The notes beneath the pieces are model-generated. The model saw nothing but the letters and a program-made list of their open reading frames with translations. It made no database searches and had not been told where the DNA came from. DNA of 28,439 nucleotides from a virus. Below, one piece after another: positions 18 through 18,999 of this stretch; position 1 is the stretch's first letter; each line of letters opens with the position of its first letter. The DNA lies in IMG/VR virus record IMGVR_UViG_3300021364_002298, positions 1-28,439 of that record. One strand, 5' to 3'. A program made the translations under genes and the position numbers.

Positions 18-47
18 ATTATAGTTTGTGTTATTCTTTTTTGCACG
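18..47 (-). promoter_or_regulatory. Putative phage promoter reading out of the left window edge
   Basis: On the minus strand CGTGCAAAAA (47-38) is followed after 14 bp by TATAAT (23-18). This has the geometry of the promoter signature seen at 3121-3150 and 16468-16497, with 7 of 10 upstream bases matching and the CGTG core intact. It overlaps the end of the 74-aa gene and points left, so its gene would start outside the window. The call rests on pattern and spacing only. Confidence 0.4.
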
Positions 48-2046: not shown

Positions 2047-2111
2047 TTTGTAACTGTTTTTCTACGTTTTTAACTGTTTTACAACAAAGCTTATTATTTG
2101 TAACTGTTTTA
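2047..2111. repeat. Three helically phased copies of TAACTGTTTT
   Basis: The 10-bp core TAACTGTTTT occurs perfectly at 2051-2060, 2071-2080 and 2101-2110. The copies are mostly extended by a preceding TTTG or TTTT. Start-to-start distances are 20 and 30 bp, two and three helical turns, so all copies face the same side of the helix. They fill the 74-bp gap between the divergent thyX stop and the deoxyribosyltransferase start. The last copy overlaps the thyX stop codon, and the first lies just upstream of the next gene's Shine-Dalgarno. Operator, replication iteron or RNA-binding sites are all possible. Confidence 0.75.
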
Positions 2112-3080
2112 AAACTCATTATCGAGTTGCTGCTTAATTTGATTTACAGCGTTTACATCATCATTCCACATTCTTGTAAAGATCTTTTCTTCACCAGACT
2201 TATTGCCATTAATCTCTTCACGACGACATGAATAAATAGAATCTTTTTCATTGAATTCAAACAAATCGTTTTTAGGCTCTGGGTGATAAAGGTTTGTTCC
2301 ACGAGATGTAAATGTACCATCAGGTAATTCAACACGGAAAGTGCGAACATAATGCATATCTGGCTTTTCAAAGTTTAAACATGTAGAAACTTCTGGAATT
2401 GCTGTGCAGACAATTTTTGCAATACGCGTTGCAATAATATTGTCAACTTCTGGCTGAATTTGTACATCTTGACGTTGTCTAATAAACCCAATTAAGTCTT
2501 TAAGATTAAAACGTGCAACATAAAAAGTCTCTAGAGACTTAGGTAAAATAACTCGAGCATCCATAAGTGATACAACGCGTGAGTCTACCATGTCAGCATA
2601 AAGTTGTTTTGCTGCAGCTGCAACTTCCATAAACCGATGATGAAAGTCTGAGTTTTCTACAGACTCAGGTACTAAAACATTATCGTTTCTAAGATCTCTA
2701 TCACCTGTACATTGCGCTGCAAATGAACCGGCTCGATGTCTAATTAAATGAGTAACAGTTTGTGTATCAATTCCGCTAATCTTAAAAGTAAATCCTAGAC
2801 ACTCCATTGGAGTAGGAAGTGCCCTAAAGTTAAGTACGTCTTGCAAATTAAGTGAAGCTTCCTCAGGTGTTGCATTTTCAAATGCTGTTTCAGAAGGCGT
2901 GTCGGCCCAAGTTGCTTTTGTCATGTGCCAAGCAATTTTTTGTGCCTGCTCTCTTGTAGGGCCATCGATAAGTTCAATATTAAGTGATTCTAAGTTGTTA
3001 ATGTAATGAGTAACAGGAACTTGATCAAATTTAAGTTCCATAGGGAGTGTGACTTGTTTAAGATCATTATTGATTGGCAT
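2109..3080 (-). CDS. thyX: Divergent ThyX-like flavin-dependent thymidylate synthase
   Basis: The ThyX family uses FAD, NADPH and methylenetetrahydrofolate to methylate dUMP. Here LIRHRAGSF (112-120) matches the start of the ThyX motif RHR-x7-S, but the motif Ser is replaced by Cys124 and the usual NExS-RY part is AAQC-GDR. The second family block is visible at 175-212: ARVILP, then a tyrosine-containing helix, FNLKDLIGFIRQRQ and a Q-x-x-x-E pattern. The protein is 323 aa, longer than the 239-aa canonical ThyX at 6190-6909, with about 80 extra residues after the core. ATG 3080 has GGAG five bases upstream and a promoter at 3121-3150. It may still make dTMP, or act on another pyrimidine nucleotide. 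The family call is firm, the substrate is not. Confidence 0.85.
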   Translation of the reverse strand: MPINNDLKQVTLPMELKFDQVPVTHYINNLESLNIELIDGPTREQAQKIAWHMTKATWADTPSETAFENATPEEASLNLQDVLNFRALPTPMECLGFTFKISGIDTQTVTHLIRHRAGSFAAQCTGDRDLRNDNVLVPESVENSDFHHRFMEVAAAAKQLYADMVDSRVVSLMDARVILPKSLETFYVARFNLKDLIGFIRQRQDVQIQPEVDNIIATRIAKIVCTAIPEVSTCLNFEKPDMHYVRTFRVELPDGTFTSRGTNLYHPEPKNDLFEFNEKDSIYSCRREEINGNKSGEEKIFTRMWNDDVNAVNQIKQQLDNEF

Positions 3081-3120: not shown

Positions 3121-3150
3121 ATTATACAATACAAGTTTAAAATTTACACG
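3121..3150 (-). promoter_or_regulatory. Promoter of the divergent thyX operon
   Basis: On the minus strand CGTGTAAATT (3150-3141), 14 bp, then TATAAT (3126-3121). The identical 10-mer, spacer length and hexamer recur upstream of ssb. GTGTAA to TATAAT spacing is 17 bp, the normal sigma70-type distance, although the upstream box is not TTGACA. The predicted start is near 3114, giving a leader of about 34 bases before ATG 3080. It sits in a 74-bp gap between genes. Confidence 0.7.
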
Positions 3151-5754: not shown

Positions 5755-6129
5755 TTATAGTATCATAGGTCTTCTTTGTAATTTTTGGTTAACAATATCA
5801 TTGTCATGTTCCATTACTTTAATCATGTCAACACCTTCAACAGACTTAAGTAATTGTGCAACACGTTTGAGTTTATTGTCTGCAGATATGTACTTTGGAA
5901 TATAAGAAACATTAAGTTCTACTATTCTATGTCCGTTATTTGTAACGGGTTCGCTAATGGGTCTAGTTTGTCTTACTGTTACAATTCCTTCAAGAGCTCT
6001 CATGTCTGTCATTATATCAAGGACAGTCGGGTCTTCTCTTTCTTCAATCATAATTCTACATCTAACTAGCGTATTAACTAGATCTTTATGCCTTTCAAGC
6101 AAAAGTCTTCTGTCTTCTTCTATAATCAT
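5755..6129 (-). CDS. Hypothetical protein, 124 aa, possible ferredoxin-like/ACT-like fold
   Basis: I do not recognise a named family. After a charged N-terminal helix (residues 4-30), the order of segments is helix (TVLDIMTDMRALEGI), strand (VTVRQTRP), strand (HRIVELNVSYIP), helix (ADNKLKRVAQLLKSVEG) and strand (VDMIKVMEH). This alpha-beta-beta-alpha-beta order is typical of ferredoxin-like or ACT-like domains. The phrase pattern 'ALEGIVTV' followed by 'SVEGVDMIKV' looks like a duplicated helix-to-strand turn. ATG 6129 has AGAGG upstream and a promoter candidate at 6170-6199, so it is probably the first gene of its transcript. Confidence 0.6.
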   Translation of the reverse strand: MIIEEDRRLLLERHKDLVNTLVRCRIMIEEREDPTVLDIMTDMRALEGIVTVRQTRPISEPVTNNGHRIVELNVSYIPKYISADNKLKRVAQLLKSVEGVDMIKVMEHDNDIVNQKLQRRPMIL

Positions 6130-6169: not shown

Positions 6170-6199
6170 ATTATACAATTTTTTTGTAATTAATGCACG
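6170..6199 (-). promoter_or_regulatory. Promoter candidate for the 124-aa to HAD-fusion operon
   Basis: On the minus strand CGTGCATTAA (6199-6190), 14 bp, then TATAAT (6175-6170). CGTG-N20-TATAAT matches the thyX and ssb promoters exactly, while the rest of the upstream box is diverged. The predicted start near 6163 leaves a leader of about 34 bases with AGAGG before ATG 6129. The upstream box overlaps the end of the canonical thyX gene. Confidence 0.5.
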
Positions 6200-6909
6200 C
6201 CTTTTATATTTCTATACGCACTGACAGTGACTGGCCATAACTCTGTAATAATTTCTAACATTTTTTCAGCTAGTACTTGAATTTCTACTTGAGCACCTTC
6301 ATGCATTCTCAAGTCAATAAATTTTAAAATATTGTTAAGATTAGCAGTTGCATAATATTCAGTATAAAGATTTTGAGGCAAAATACCTCTTGCTTGCTCT
6401 TTGCAAACTCCAGCATCAATTAGTTTATCAAATAATTTAATTGATTCTCTATGATGCATCTTTATAATTTCACTAGCATTTTTAATCATAGGCACAGAAC
6501 ACATTTCAGTATCGATCGATATTTCTGGATTAAAGGTCTCTTCTCTCTCAGAAGCTTGTCTATTACTCTTATGCTGCGTTCTTAACATTTCTGTTTCATA
6601 AAACTCTAAATTAACGTCTGTATATCTTCTGCTAATTTCGTTATATGACCATGTTCTGTGCCTATGATGTTGACTACGAACAAATAGAGGCACTTTAATT
6701 CTAAATGTTGCAATATTATGCTCGAGTGTAGAAGTGTGCTTATGTCTAATTAGATAATTGATAAGTTTTTCGTCTTTTGAGTCTAGTTCATCTTTTTGTA
6801 CACCAAAAGAAACTCTAGCAGAGTTAACAATTGTTATGTCCTCACCCATAAATTGAACTAGTTCAACCTTACCAATATTGTCATCATATAAAAAATGTTG
6901 TTTATTCAT
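6190..6909 (-). CDS. thyX: Flavin-dependent thymidylate synthase ThyX
   Basis: A canonical ThyX of usual length (239 aa), converting dUMP to dTMP with FAD, NADPH and methylenetetrahydrofolate. The signature RHRTWSYNEISRRY (residues 83-96) fits RHRxxSxNExSxRY fully, with Ser93 in the RHR-x7-S position. SFGVQ and TSTLEHNIATFRIKVP upstream are family blocks. ARGILP (173-178), TEYYATANLNNILKFIDLR (183-201) and AQVEI (206-210) complete the nucleotide-binding part. It is followed closely by the 124-aa gene and preceded by the amidase. A divergent paralogue lies at 2109-3080, so this copy probably carries the standard activity. Confidence 0.95.
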   Translation of the reverse strand: MNKQHFLYDDNIGKVELVQFMGEDITIVNSARVSFGVQKDELDSKDEKLINYLIRHKHTSTLEHNIATFRIKVPLFVRSQHHRHRTWSYNEISRRYTDVNLEFYETEMLRTQHKSNRQASEREETFNPEISIDTEMCSVPMIKNASEIIKMHHRESIKLFDKLIDAGVCKEQARGILPQNLYTEYYATANLNNILKFIDLRMHEGAQVEIQVLAEKMLEIITELWPVTVSAYRNIKGVH

Positions 6910-7746: not shown

Positions 7747-8349
7747 TTAGTCTAAATCAATATCTACAGAAACTGTTGCCTTTAACCTTGGAACTCTTAG
7801 GTGTTGAACGATTCCATGCTCTAAAGCTTCATCTGCGTCAAGGAACCAATCAGCGTGTCCTTTGTCGTGAATAAGTTTAGTAAAATAGTCATCAGGTTTG
7901 CCACAATTTCTTGCCATCATTTGATAAACTTTTTTATTCAATCTTTCAGATTCTCTAGCATCTGCCTTTAATTCCTCAACTTTGCCAAAAGCAAAACTAG
8001 CAACATCGTGAATCATTAGCGTCGCATCTTTATCCATAAATCGCAAACCGTCTGATCCAAAAGACGAAAGAATTGCACCGCATGACATAGCCTTTCCTTG
8101 CACAATAGTTGCTACTGGAATTGTAGAAGATTTAATAGATGAAATCATGGACATAAGAGAGTAAACTTGCCCTCCATATGAATCAATAACTACTGGTACT
8201 ACTTTTTGTCCAGTATTCTGTGCTAAAGACATCGCAGTTGAAAACTCTGTTGCAGATTCTTCATTAAACTCATTTACTACAATAATAATAGGATCTTGTC
8301 GAAGTTCAATTGTTTTAATTTTAGGTGAAATATCCGTTAAAAAATTCAT
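7747..8349 (-). CDS. clpP: ClpP-like serine protease
   Basis: The 200-aa protein has the ClpP/crotonase fold signature. The oxyanion strand is VVIDSYGGQV (53-62), the nucleophile S89 lies in GKAMSCGA, H114 in LMIHDV, and the acid is probably D167 in ADWFLDADEALEHGIVQ. In phages such proteases process proheads, or they may act as a phage ClpP. This one is not beside capsid genes, so the role is open. The length suits a single ClpP protomer with a short unusual C-terminus (VPRLKATVSVDIDLD). ATG 8349 has only a weak AAGGG upstream. A promoter candidate precedes it at 8384-8413, making it first of a clpP-amidase-thyX transcript. Confidence 0.88.
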   Translation of the reverse strand: MNFLTDISPKIKTIELRQDPIIIVVNEFNEESATEFSTAMSLAQNTGQKVVPVVIDSYGGQVYSLMSMISSIKSSTIPVATIVQGKAMSCGAILSSFGSDGLRFMDKDATLMIHDVASFAFGKVEELKADARESERLNKKVYQMMARNCGKPDDYFTKLIHDKGHADWFLDADEALEHGIVQHLRVPRLKATVSVDIDLD

Positions 8350-8383: not shown

Positions 8384-8413
8384 ATTATAAAAGTTAGATT
8401 AGTAATTTATAAA
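8384..8413 (-). promoter_or_regulatory. Promoter candidate for clpP-amidase-thyX
   Basis: TTTATAAATT (8413-8404), 14 bp, TATAAT (8389-8384) on the minus strand. The TAAATT half and the spacing match the signature, and 7 of 10 upstream bases agree, but CGTG is lost. It lies in the 70-bp gap after the thioredoxin gene, with a predicted leader of about 28 bases. The upstream box lies in an A/T palindrome AATTTATAAATT. Confidence 0.5.
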
Positions 8414-13365: not shown

Positions 13366-14331
13366 TTATGTTAATGTCCTCATGTTAGATTTAATAGATA
13401 GCAGAAATGAATGAACGTCAAAAGAGTTTAAACCTTGACTATTTAAGATTTTCATTATTTCAAATTTGTTTATTTTTTCTTCTTTGTTGTTTAATTGATA
13501 GTTGATTTTTTTAACTTGATCAGCACTTATCATTGCAGAGTCTAGATACATAAGTTTCCAATTCTTGGTTATGTTATGAGATTCAGCAACAATGTTTTTA
13601 TATAGTTTTAAAGTGCTGCCGTTTTTATCTTCTTCCTCTGACCTGTTTATTATATCACTTATAGTTACATCTTTACACGTACTTAATTCTGGGAATCTTT
13701 TTGACATAACTTTGAAGCCGGCTCCTTTGACACCTTTTATTCCGTCACTCTGATCTCCACTAAAACATCTTGTAGTACAGAAATTATTTGGTGTCACGTT
13801 CCATTTCTCTAAAACATACTCTTTATCTATGATCTGTTTTTTGTTTGGACTCCATATTTTTGTCGTATCATTTATTAACTGATAATAGTCTTTGTCTGAT
13901 GTCACAATTAATTTTTCTACGTCATCTTTTTTAGTCGACGTCAAATATGCAATTACATCATCAGCTTCACAATCATTTACATAGATTTGTGTAACAGGTG
14001 TTTTATAAAGAATGCTGACAAGTGTTTTTAGTTGCCAATTTCTATTGTCTTGTGTATCAGGTATGTCTTCATTATATTCACTTCTGTTTAATCTTACAGG
14101 TCGTCTACCTTGTTTATAATTAGGGTCAATATTGCGTCTTCTTACAGACCCGCCACCTTCCCAAACTACTACTATTTTACTAGGCTTAAACTTTTCAGAC
14201 AGATGCTGAATATTTCTTAGCATACCAAAAATGCCCCCACACAGCTGTCCATTTAAGGACTTTGCTGGATTGGCGGCAAAATGTCTCATAAAAACGTTTA
14301 AGCCATCAATATAAATTTCTGGCTTGTTCAT
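13366..14331 (-). CDS. 5'-3' exonuclease / flap endonuclease (RNase H-like, FEN)
   Basis: The protein resembles T4 RNase H, T5 FEN and the 5' nuclease domain of Pol I, which remove RNA primers and flaps. Metal-binding acids: D9 in YIDGLN, E122, D124 and D125 in NDCEADDV, D146 and D148 in TSDKDYY, D193 and D196 in FSGDQSDGIKG, followed by the helix-hairpin-helix VKGAGFK. The arch-region pattern R-x-x-x-DPNYKQGRR (66-77) is conserved. Length is 321 aa, within the range for stand-alone phage enzymes. Since the phage polymerase here has no nuclease domains, this gene supplies the primer-removal function separately. It lies five bases downstream of recA. Confidence 0.95.
   Translation of the reverse strand: MNKPEIYIDGLNVFMRHFAANPAKSLNGQLCGGIFGMLRNIQHLSEKFKPSKIVVVWEGGGSVRRRNIDPNYKQGRRPVRLNRSEYNEDIPDTQDNRNWQLKTLVSILYKTPVTQIYVNDCEADDVIAYLTSTKKDDVEKLIVTSDKDYYQLINDTTKIWSPNKKQIIDKEYVLEKWNVTPNNFCTTRCFSGDQSDGIKGVKGAGFKVMSKRFPELSTCKDVTISDIINRSEEEDKNGSTLKLYKNIVAESHNITKNWKLMYLDSAMISADQVKKINYQLNNKEEKINKFEIMKILNSQGLNSFDVHSFLLSIKSNMRTLT
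13649..13679 (-). promoter_or_regulatory. Weak internal promoter candidate within the nuclease gene
   Basis: CGTGTAAAG (13679-13671) and TATAAT (13654-13649) lie on the minus strand, but the spacer is one base longer than in the other copies (CGTG-N21-TATAAT). It is inside the nuclease coding sequence and would start transcripts about 280 bases upstream of the helicase. Chance occurrence in A/T-rich coding DNA is a real alternative. Confidence 0.25.
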
Positions 14332-16425: not shown

Positions 16426-16458
16426 ATTGGTAATATTTAATTTGTGTTTTAAACCAAT
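16426..16458 (-). promoter_or_regulatory. Possible stem-loop in the ssb mRNA leader
   Basis: ATTGGT (mRNA sense, 16458-16453) can pair with ACCAAT (16431-16426) across a 21-base A/U-rich loop, ending about 19 bases before the AAAGGAA Shine-Dalgarno (16407-16401). T4 gp32 represses its own mRNA by binding a structured, A/U-rich leader, so an autoregulatory site is conceivable. The six-pair stem alone is weak. Confidence 0.3.
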
Positions 16459-16467
16459 CATGATGTC

Positions 16468-16497
16468 ATTATAATATGATTAATTCTAATTTACACG
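16468..16497 (-). promoter_or_regulatory. Promoter of ssb
   Basis: On the minus strand CGTGTAAATT (16497-16488), 14 bp, TATAAT (16473-16468), identical in both boxes and spacing to the copy before the divergent thyX. It lies in the 129-bp gap, the longest in the window. The predicted start near 16461 gives a leader of about 66 bases before ATG 16395. Confidence 0.7.
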
Positions 16498-17320: not shown

Positions 17321-17914
17321 AGTATATATTCCAGCAACTTTATCTAGCTCATCTTTAATTACAGCTTCGTGTGCTAGTGTTAAGACAGTTGCTAATCTAG
17401 ACTTATGACCGCCATAAAATTTGCTCTCTTCACTTCCTGGATCTCTTAATAACATTATTGCATTCCACTCTTCCCAAGATAAACCAACATTATAATGTTG
17501 AAGTAGATATAGCGTCATATCATTAATTTGATATTTAGGACAGTCTTCGTTCCAGTCAAAGTATTGACCTAGTTTTTCTTTATGCCATTCAGACTCTGTA
17601 TCTTTAAATCGATTTTGTGATAGCGTACCAATTCTGCCTAAGATTGAAAGTAATGAACATCGAATAATTGTCTTCTTATATATACCATAATTTAAAGCAT
17701 CTGATATTTTGTTTGCAACTTTTGCAAGTTCTAATGCATATTCAACAATTCCACCTATTCCACAAAATGCTTCTTTTTCTCTTTGTGAATAAGATGTCAT
17801 TAATATTCTTTCTCCTTCTTTTTCAATAAGATTATTAATGCTCTCATCTTCTAATTTATTAAGAAGCATTTCATACTTTGACCAAAGTGTCTCTATGTCT
17901 CTTTCTTTATACAT
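17309..17914 (-). CDS. Degenerate HD-domain-like protein
   Basis: The 201-aa protein has the outline of an HD phosphohydrolase but lacks its metal ligands. GGIVEYALELAKVANKI (54-70) matches the first HD helix, with Y59 where His is expected. SLLSILGRIGTL (87-98) matches the family's LLHDIGKIG element, with S90-I91 in place of the His-Asp pair. ESEWHKEKLGQYFDWNEDCP follows, then LTLAHEAVIKDE (178-189), where the last ligand Asp would be. I infer a catalytically dead HD fold serving a binding or scaffolding role, perhaps for the polymerase whose gene overlaps it (TAATG). Family assignment is by pattern only. Confidence 0.5.
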   Translation of the reverse strand: MYKERDIETLWSKYEMLLNKLEDESINNLIEKEGERILMTSYSQREKEAFCGIGGIVEYALELAKVANKISDALNYGIYKKTIIRCSLLSILGRIGTLSQNRFKDTESEWHKEKLGQYFDWNEDCPKYQINDMTLYLLQHYNVGLSWEEWNAIMLLRDPGSEESKFYGGHKSRLATVLTLAHEAVIKDELDKVAGIYTVPF

Positions 17915-18963
17915 TAATATGTCTCCGATAATTTAGCTGTTTCTACTGGAAAATTTCCTAATAAAGGGCAGTTATAACCTTTGTCAGTTATGTTTTTTAA
18001 TTCTTCTATATACTCATTTTTGACATCTAAAACTAAAGCATCATGAATAATAAAAATAGGTTTACACAAATCTTTATCTATTTTTTCTACTAATTCTGAA
18101 AAATATGTCAGAGCAACATCGACTGCTGTAGATTGTATGTAGTTGTTTATCAGTTTGTTTGATTGTGTTTCTTCGATATTCCATATTGGTCGACCAAAAA
18201 AGTTGTTTCTGCAGCCAATATCATTAACAACGTCAGCCTTTTTTAATATGCTTTCTAAATCAAAGTATTCTTTAGTAGCATTTAAGACACTGTCACTTCT
18301 TTCCTTAGAAAGACCTTCAATTTGCGAAGAAGATCCATATAGAGTAGAGATTATGCCTCTTTTTATTATTACTCTATCAACTTCAAAATCGAGTGATGCT
18401 GAAATTTCGCTGTATATATCGTCAGATGATGATTTGCCATTTATGCTTCTTATGACTCTAGGTTCTAAATTTTTAAAGTCTACATATAATAGATCACCAT
18501 CGTAATTCCATCTACTTTGAAATATTTTTCTACATCTAGCTGGGAGTGTTAATATATTAGGACTGTTTTTATTATTAACTAATCTACCTGAAACTGTTTT
18601 TACTTGATCATATGATACTATATTTGAAAAACCATTTTTAGGTTTAAAAGAATTTAAATTGCTCAATATTGATTCATTTTTTTCTAATTCTTTAAAAACT
18701 TTATAAGATATTAAATTAATCTTTGCTGCATTTAAAGAACTAAATATTTTTTGCTGATTATTATATCTCTCTATATAGTTTAGAGACATATCTTTTTCTA
18801 CCAAGACTTTGTTTGCCTCTTCAATATCAGACATGTAATTTTCTAAAAAATGATCAGGCAATATTAAACTAATGTCTAATATATTAGAACTATTAAACAT
18901 ACTAATAAATTTATTCCATTTTTTAGTATTTTGTATTTTAAATAACTTATATAAATTTCTCAT
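17914..18963 (-). CDS. polA: Minimal family A DNA polymerase, no exonuclease domain
   Basis: Only the polymerase part of a Pol I-type enzyme is present (349 aa). SGRL (125-128) corresponds to the primer-contact TGRL element. Motif A is YVDFKNLEPR (160-169) with metal ligand D162. Motif B is R197, K201 and Y209-G210 spaced as in Pol I R754, K758, Y766, with Ile205 at the Phe762 position. The NNYIQSTAVDV block (273-283) matches the conserved Q motif. Motif C is IIHDALVLDV (305-314) with D308, but Ala309 replaces the usual Glu. The first about 120 residues must serve as thumb. No 3'-5' or 5'-3' exonuclease domain exists. ATG 18963 has no Shine-Dalgarno and lies at the predicted transcription start. 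Confidence 0.88.
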   Translation of the reverse strand: MRNLYKLFKIQNTKKWNKFISMFNSSNILDISLILPDHFLENYMSDIEEANKVLVEKDMSLNYIERYNNQQKIFSSLNAAKINLISYKVFKELEKNESILSNLNSFKPKNGFSNIVSYDQVKTVSGRLVNNKNSPNILTLPARCRKIFQSRWNYDGDLLYVDFKNLEPRVIRSINGKSSSDDIYSEISASLDFEVDRVIIKRGIISTLYGSSSQIEGLSKERSDSVLNATKEYFDLESILKKADVVNDIGCRNNFFGRPIWNIEETQSNKLINNYIQSTAVDVALTYFSELVEKIDKDLCKPIFIIHDALVLDVKNEYIEELKNITDKGYNCPLLGNFPVETAKLSETY

Positions 18964-18969
18964 AATACG

Positions 18970-18999
18970 ATTATATTATGACATAGTAAAATTTACAAC
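18970..18999 (-). promoter_or_regulatory. Promoter of polA, predicted leaderless transcript
   Basis: On the minus strand GTTGTAAATT (18999-18990), 14 bp, TATAAT (18975-18970); 8 of 10 upstream bases match the signature, with identical spacing. The polA ATG begins six bases after the -10 box, where transcription would start. The promoter occupies the 38-bp gap that separates the structural from the replication module. Confidence 0.65.

Follow-up and report, generated by a model that had tools for sequence, protein, structure and literature searches.

A recurrent GTGYAA/TATAAT promoter signature in uncultured phages, and an apparently split sigma factor as its possible reader

Promoter-like sites in a 28-kb phage fragment

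The sequence analysed here (the window) is a stretch of 28,439 nucleotides, IMG/VR virus record IMGVR_UViG_3300021364_002298, and is a fragment of a phage. Two different thyX-like genes are found in it, at 2109-3080 and 6190-6909. The sites considered below are the following:

16468..16497, minus strand: predicted ssb promoter; -35 box GTGTAA 16496-16491, 17-bp spacer, -10 TATAAT 16473-16468; the 5' base C is at 16497
16426..16458, minus strand: ssb leader element with the pairing arms ATTGGT 16458-16453 and ACCAAT 16431-16426; putative conserved RNA structure
3121..3150, minus strand: predicted promoter of the second thyX (2109-3080); GTGTAA 3149-3144, 17 bp, TATAAT 3126-3121
18970..18999, minus strand: probable promoter of a short polA-like gene (17914-18963); TTGTAA 18998-18993, 17 bp, TATAAT 18975-18970
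6170..6199, minus strand: possible promoter of gene 5755-6129; GTGCAT 6198-6193, 17 bp, TATAAT 6175-6170
18..47, minus strand: possible promoter at the window edge, across the stop codon of gene 31-255; GTGCAA 46-41, 17 bp, TATAAT 23-18
8384..8413, minus strand: doubtful promoter of clpP (7747-8349); TTATAA 8412-8407, 17 bp, TATAAT 8389-8384

An initial annotation of this DNA had described CGTGTAAATT-N14-TATAAT as a two-part promoter signature occurring identically before ssb and thyX. Both exact copies (16497-16468 and 3150-3121, minus strand) are indeed present, against 0.00 expected from 100 dinucleotide shuffles. A position weight matrix (PWM), trained solely on relatives and then scored on the window, gave 24.2 for the ssb site and 24.9 for the thyX site, far above everything else, the chance level in the window being 0 hits at a score of at least 18, about 0.25 at 12 or more and 1.45 at 9 or more. 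The lesser copies reported in the same annotation are also there as described, with TATAAT at the spacing of the exact copies: GTTGTAAATT before polA (18999-18970, an 8/10 match), TTTATAAATT before clpP (8413-8384, 7/10), CGTGCATTAA at 6199-6170 and CGTGCAAAAA at 47-18. The last of these scores 12.2 and its downstream gene lies beyond the window. The polA copy, at 9.2, is weak alone, the copy at 6199 falls below the PWM cut-off and the clpP copy is missed by the matrix; judged by these scores and the expected counts, none of the three is significant within the window alone. All six copies share the minus strand with the genes and occupy gaps or overlap stop codons, which agrees with the codirectional arrangement originally proposed. 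GTGTAA-N18-TATAAT also occurs once within the exonuclease gene (-10 at 13654), where it is probably due to chance.

Comparison of orthologues shows that the box is retained before thyX, gene 5755-6129 and polA, often in a better form than in the window. GTGTAA-N17-TATAAT is found upstream of the second thyX in the related contigs G002, G003, G004 and G005 as well, GTGTAA-N17 with a TATAAT-type -10 precedes the orthologues of gene 5755-6129 at L009 and L011, and GTGTAAATTT or TTGTAAATT occupies the equivalent place before polA in most relatives. The clpP orthologues keep the box only in part, and this copy is doubtful.

Identity and geometry of the box in relatives

The region upstream of ssb was compared among about 75 homologues from viral contigs. 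GTGTAAA is found near TATAAT in almost all of them while the surroundings diverge, and only the most remote homologues show it weakened. When the distance between GTGTAA and TATAAT was counted, 17 bp was observed 64 times (many of these being ssb homologues) and 18 bp 19 times, with at most 5 occurrences at the other distances tested; TTGACA at 17 bp before TATAAT did not occur in the same count. This spacing peak indicates a sigma70 geometry with GTGTAA in the place of the -35 element. The -10 is thus the canonical TATAAT within the canonical 16-18 bp (peak 17, some 18), and the -35 is GTG[TC]AA instead of TTGACA; the combination TTGACA-N16-18-TATAAT stays at background in 27 contigs of relatives (6 matches, 5 in the control).

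Unbiased logos lead to the same box. When every upstream TATAAT of G003 and G004 was aligned, GTGTAA emerged at 17 bp, and in the more distant group of contigs encoding protein A (described below) the logo gave GTG[TC]AA at 17 bp together with an extended -10. The main box of G047 and G038 is GTGCAA (17 and 11 matches, counted without controls). In the dialect of G028 (15 matches) the core TGTAAA stands 18 bp rather than 16 bp from TATAAT. An early-type array of this contig (L322-L336, 7-45 kb) carries TCTGTAAAAA ... TATGGTATAATA followed by a conserved CTATAA. On the strength of these alignments, the box is GTGTAA, with a variant GTGCAA and a common core TGYAAA, placed 17 bp (in the GTGYAA frame) before a consensus TATAAT. 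The motif first framed as CGTGTAAATT-N14 is real, and it is better read as GTGTAA-N17-TATAAT, a sigma70-type geometry with a GTGCAA variant. That it recurs as a promoter signature, has an upstream box other than TTGACA and marks transcription units is strongly supported by the relatives, the logos and the orthologues.

The ssb leader also contains a conserved element. In the leaders L014-L058 a conserved hairpin exposes a loop ATTGG that pairs with a downstream CCAAT, a putative H-type pseudoknot. Among the relatives, 4 of the 6 pairs of stem 1 are changed on both sides, and stem 2 is 98% paired. The leader of the window (16467-16396, minus strand) keeps the ATTGGT/ACCAAT arms and has no obvious stem 1. 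An Rfam search near ssb gave no match. The arrangement recalls T4 gene 32, which carries an autoregulatory pseudoknot.

Distribution and genomic context

The search of relatives that the initial annotation had recommended yielded 26 exact matches in G003 (239.5 kb) and 33 in G004 (211 kb), with 0 and 1 in the respective reversed controls. Although about 95% of both sequences is called coding, the sites are mostly in gaps, and most of them face, in the same direction, a start codon 25-90 bases away, about 50 bp being typical. An even spread through coding sequence, named in the annotation as the observation that would speak against promoters, is therefore not what is seen. In each of the two contigs, 33 of the 41 GTGYAW sites are no more than 130 bases away from a start, a proportion that is about 20% for all TATAAT sequences. 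Each contig also possesses a block of about 30 kb in which copies precede small genes at intervals of a few hundred to a few thousand bases. The array promoters of G004 (88-100 kb) share a conserved sequence, CATAAGG, in the predicted transcript start region directly after the -10. G001 (133 kb), a close relative of the window, has three GTGTAA copies, before ssb, the orthologue of gene 5755-6129 and thyX, all beyond 113 kb, and the class was not seen through its structural-gene region. The small-gene arrays and the placement of GTGTAA in G001 fit a class devoted to early and DNA-metabolism genes.

On a larger scale, 45 contigs (4.85 Mb) chosen for encoding the sigma-like protein A or its partner B gave 107 matches, as opposed to 1 in the reversed control. 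These matches occur in 33 of the 45 contigs, some of them near 54% GC, and some contigs that encode A have no match. Since these contigs have a common ancestry and were themselves retrieved by means of A or B, the association between box and sigma is not an independent one. The class is absent from 35 T4-like contigs with gp55 (1 match, 6 in the control). In the near group, and in part of the distant one, a promoter of this class usually stands before the A gene too. At L213-L217, upstream of this gene, a GC-rich inverted repeat such as GCGCAG-GTGTAAC-CTGCGC holds the -35 box in its loop; this repeat may be the terminator of the gene before it.

Could such sites arise by chance in AT-rich DNA, or from coding constraint? 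TATAAT is common in the DNA of the window, and in the AT-rich group the box at the A gene overlaps conserved codons of the upstream gene. The reversed and shuffled controls, however, are near zero and refute this explanation, the sites are codirectional and mostly in gaps, and the class extends to non-coding positions and to phages whose GC content is about 40% or higher, so that it can be considered as extremely improbable. The signature almost certainly represents a real promoter class, common to many uncultured, mostly marine phages, whose contigs span about 27% to 54% GC. From its genomic positions, the class is the predicted promoter of early and DNA-metabolism units, namely ssb, polA, thyX, the small-gene arrays and, usually, the phage sigma gene.

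A sigma factor apparently divided between two genes

The initial annotation had suggested an alternative or phage-modified sigma as reader of the box, and a concrete candidate was found in the relatives. Searches by sigma region detected two proteins, A through region 2 and B through region 4. Protein A (about 250 aa) is RpoD-like, comprises regions 1.2 to 4.1 and ends with LLTPKEEKIIRLRFGI and a short tail. Protein B is encoded by a separate ORF of 82-88 aa (about 85 aa), with a Cys-rich N-terminus followed by FTLQEIGDLFGITRMRVCQIEK, which corresponds to region 4.2. Pfam assigns regions 1.2, 2 and 3 to A and region 4 to B. On one and the same PHROG sigma profile, A covers positions 478-692, and two B proteins cover 693-726 and 692-725. 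A stops after region 4.1 in 75 of 80 loci, over a GC range of 0.23-0.59; the other five have a full region 4 of bacterial type. B was recognised directly at 15 loci and in more large contigs by profile search, and it is present in 7 of the 9 A-encoding contigs above 200 kb. Both proteins are encoded in the same contig in G003, G004, G018, G028, G031, G047 and G051, the regions of one sigma being divided there between two genes of one genome, as in a two-protein sigma. The RNA polymerase sigma factor of these phages thus seems, from these alignments, to be split into two proteins.

The structure model of A (pLDDT 78) agrees with the sigma subunit of solved holoenzyme structures; the AlphaFold model of B is of low confidence and too poor for use. 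In the B proteins, cysteines and a helix, TRMR[VI]CQIEK, are invariant. Compared with TRERIRQIE of the aligned RpoD sequences of solved structure, this helix differs at the positions that correspond to E585 and R588, the residues of RpoD that set -35 specificity (PMC2613000).

Neither A nor B is encoded in the 28-kb window. G002, a close relative of the window, encodes A, and the sample behind the close relative G001 also gave the A/B contigs L182 and L156, as judged from contig names. Among the cultured phages of the collection, tblastn found no match to B, and the sigma factors of S-H34 and MaAM05, the cultured phages inspected, retain region 4.2. A split phage sigma and a pelagiphage promoter motif were also sought in the open literature, where no paper was found.

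Searches for late promoters, host and cultured relatives

An EM motif search upstream of structural genes returned AT-rich patterns only. Upstream of genes in G001-G005, the sequences TATTTATA and ATATTTAT show enrichment, TATTTATA without clear context; they could constitute a late promoter element. The T4 late promoter TATAAATA was rejected as a candidate, its counts being about equal to those of the reversed control, and phmmer searches of six relatives gave for gp55 a non-significant score only (E 0.046, in a 48-codon frame).

In the species-genome collection, the only related UvsX (L146, PBIO01000013.1) belongs to a Halobacteriovorax bin, of which two phage-like contigs (G017 C16 and C25) carry the promoter class. 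This is a mere hint at Halobacteriovorax as host. In Mel-JY01, the nearest cultured carrier of ssb, GTGCAA-N16-18-TATAAT was not found, GTGTAA having been looked for upstream of a few genes only.

Which polymerase reads the box

The split sigma may be the reader of the two-part signal. Besides the presence of the box in phages that encode A or B, it is favoured by the way in which the two proteins adjoin along a single sigma profile, by the lack of region 4.2 in most A proteins, by the presence of B in most of the large A-encoding contigs, and by the helix of B, which is altered at the positions of -35 specificity. The course of events could be as follows. In the first rounds, host sigma70 would start these promoters by means of their perfect -10 and standard spacing, and A and B would be made. 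Core polymerase would then associate with A (regions 1.2-4.1), which would read TATAAT, and with B, whose Cys-rich part and region 4.2 would read the upstream box. Together, A and B would take the place of the host sigma and prefer the phage box to TTGACA, and transcription would shift from host to phage promoters. The statement as a whole, a promoter class coupled to a takeover by a polymerase carrying A and B, has in our estimation a nearly even chance of being correct, this reader included. Taken by itself, the proposal that an RpoD-type sigma is interrupted within region 4 and has its region 4.2 on a small Cys-rich protein, with a new -35 specificity for TGYAAA and the box standing 16 or 18 bp from the -10 according to lineage, is put forward tentatively, as somewhat less than an even prospect.

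Several observations do not favour A and B as reader. The helix of B is constant across the box dialects, and the idea that it covaries with the dialect was rejected on this ground. The core TGTAAA of G028 lies 2 bp further from the -10. In RpoD, R584 contacts position -31 and E585 position -33, and R588 affects -33 (PMC2613000); these known contacts give no simple prediction of GTGTAA from the helix of B. Moreover, the early arrays and the A gene itself carry the promoter, so a reader is needed before A exists. The weak contact prediction, the constant helix and this early requirement make host sigma70 alone a serious rival. The host factor, on a polymerase perhaps modified by the phage in the manner of T4, whose Alt protein modifies alpha, would read these sites as early promoters, GTGTAA being the early -35 dialect of the lineage and A and B serving another stage, such as late genes.

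The early promoters of T4-type phages provide a precedent, with a -35 GTTTAC at -36 to -31 and a -10 TATAAT that are read by host sigma70 (PMC1524935). As in the present class, a non-TTGACA box and TATAAT recur before early genes of a large phage, and lineage-specific variants of the box are known there, comparable to the dialects described above. The small-gene arrays fit early reading and, like the sigma gene, need a reader ahead of phage proteins; no copy of the class was observed among the structural genes of G001; and GTGTAA has T, G and the final A in common with TTGACA. However, GTGTAA/GTGCAA is situated at -35 to -30, one base nearer the -10 than GTTTAC, and unlike T4 the relatives encode an RpoD-like split sigma, while the phmmer searches of six relatives gave no gp33, MotA or AsiA and no significant gp55. 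With contigs of about 27%-54% GC, hosts of differing genomes would each need a preference for GTGYAA instead of TTGACA. In the candidate host bin (4.9 Mb), only 4 of 11 matches lie outside the two phage-like contigs, and the searches revealed no late promoter that could be attributed to A and B. Reading by host sigma70 alone is consequently regarded as a considerable possibility, although not the expected outcome.

The initial annotation had also considered host sigma70 assisted by a phage activator. A MotA-like protein bound to the upstream box would recruit host sigma70 to TATAAT, and B could be this activator rather than a part of sigma. T4 middle promoters consist of a MotA box, TGCTTtA-N11-13-TATAAT, and resemble the present class in combining TATAAT with an upstream element in the -30 region before DNA-metabolism genes, the box sitting here about where the MotA box sits. 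A core found 16 or 18 bp from the -10 according to lineage is more easily accommodated by a separate protein, and B is small, with a DNA-binding helix-turn-helix. Against this, both the box and its spacing differ from those of T4, B matches RpoD region 4.2 specifically, and the regions that B lacks are exactly those of A. MotA, AsiA and gp33 were not found by phmmer in six relatives, a single-sequence search in which divergent copies could be missed. An activator of this type is thus unlikely, and of the earlier suggestion it is host sigma70 itself that stays in contention.

The split sigma can finally be compared with known systems in which sigma function is shared or phage-encoded. SigO-RsoA of Bacillus subtilis is a two-protein sigma (PMC10141391) in which, as with A and B, the larger protein carries sigma2/sigma3 and the small one sigma4. 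The A/B pair is instead cut inside region 4 (4.1/4.2) and borne by phages; its larger member is RpoD-like and includes region 1.2, and its smaller member has a Cys-rich part in addition. Among phage-encoded factors, T4 gp55/gp33 and SPO1 gp33/gp34 work as pairs. T4 gp33 is described as an analogue of sigma, and the regulation of middle and late genes in SPO1 is ascribed to gp28 and gp34 (PMC9429907). A and B share with the T4 and SPO1 factors a sigma function encoded by the phage; they have no significant similarity to gp55/gp33 and span together one RpoD-type sigma, from region 1.2 to region 4.2.

This class of promoters supplies a readable code for abundant uncultured phages, so that the sequence alone suffices to call their transcription units. 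Should the split sigma indeed read the box, these phages would take over transcription with -10 and -35 recognition provided by separate proteins, and the system would bear on how the exchange of sigma region 4 may redirect the polymerase.
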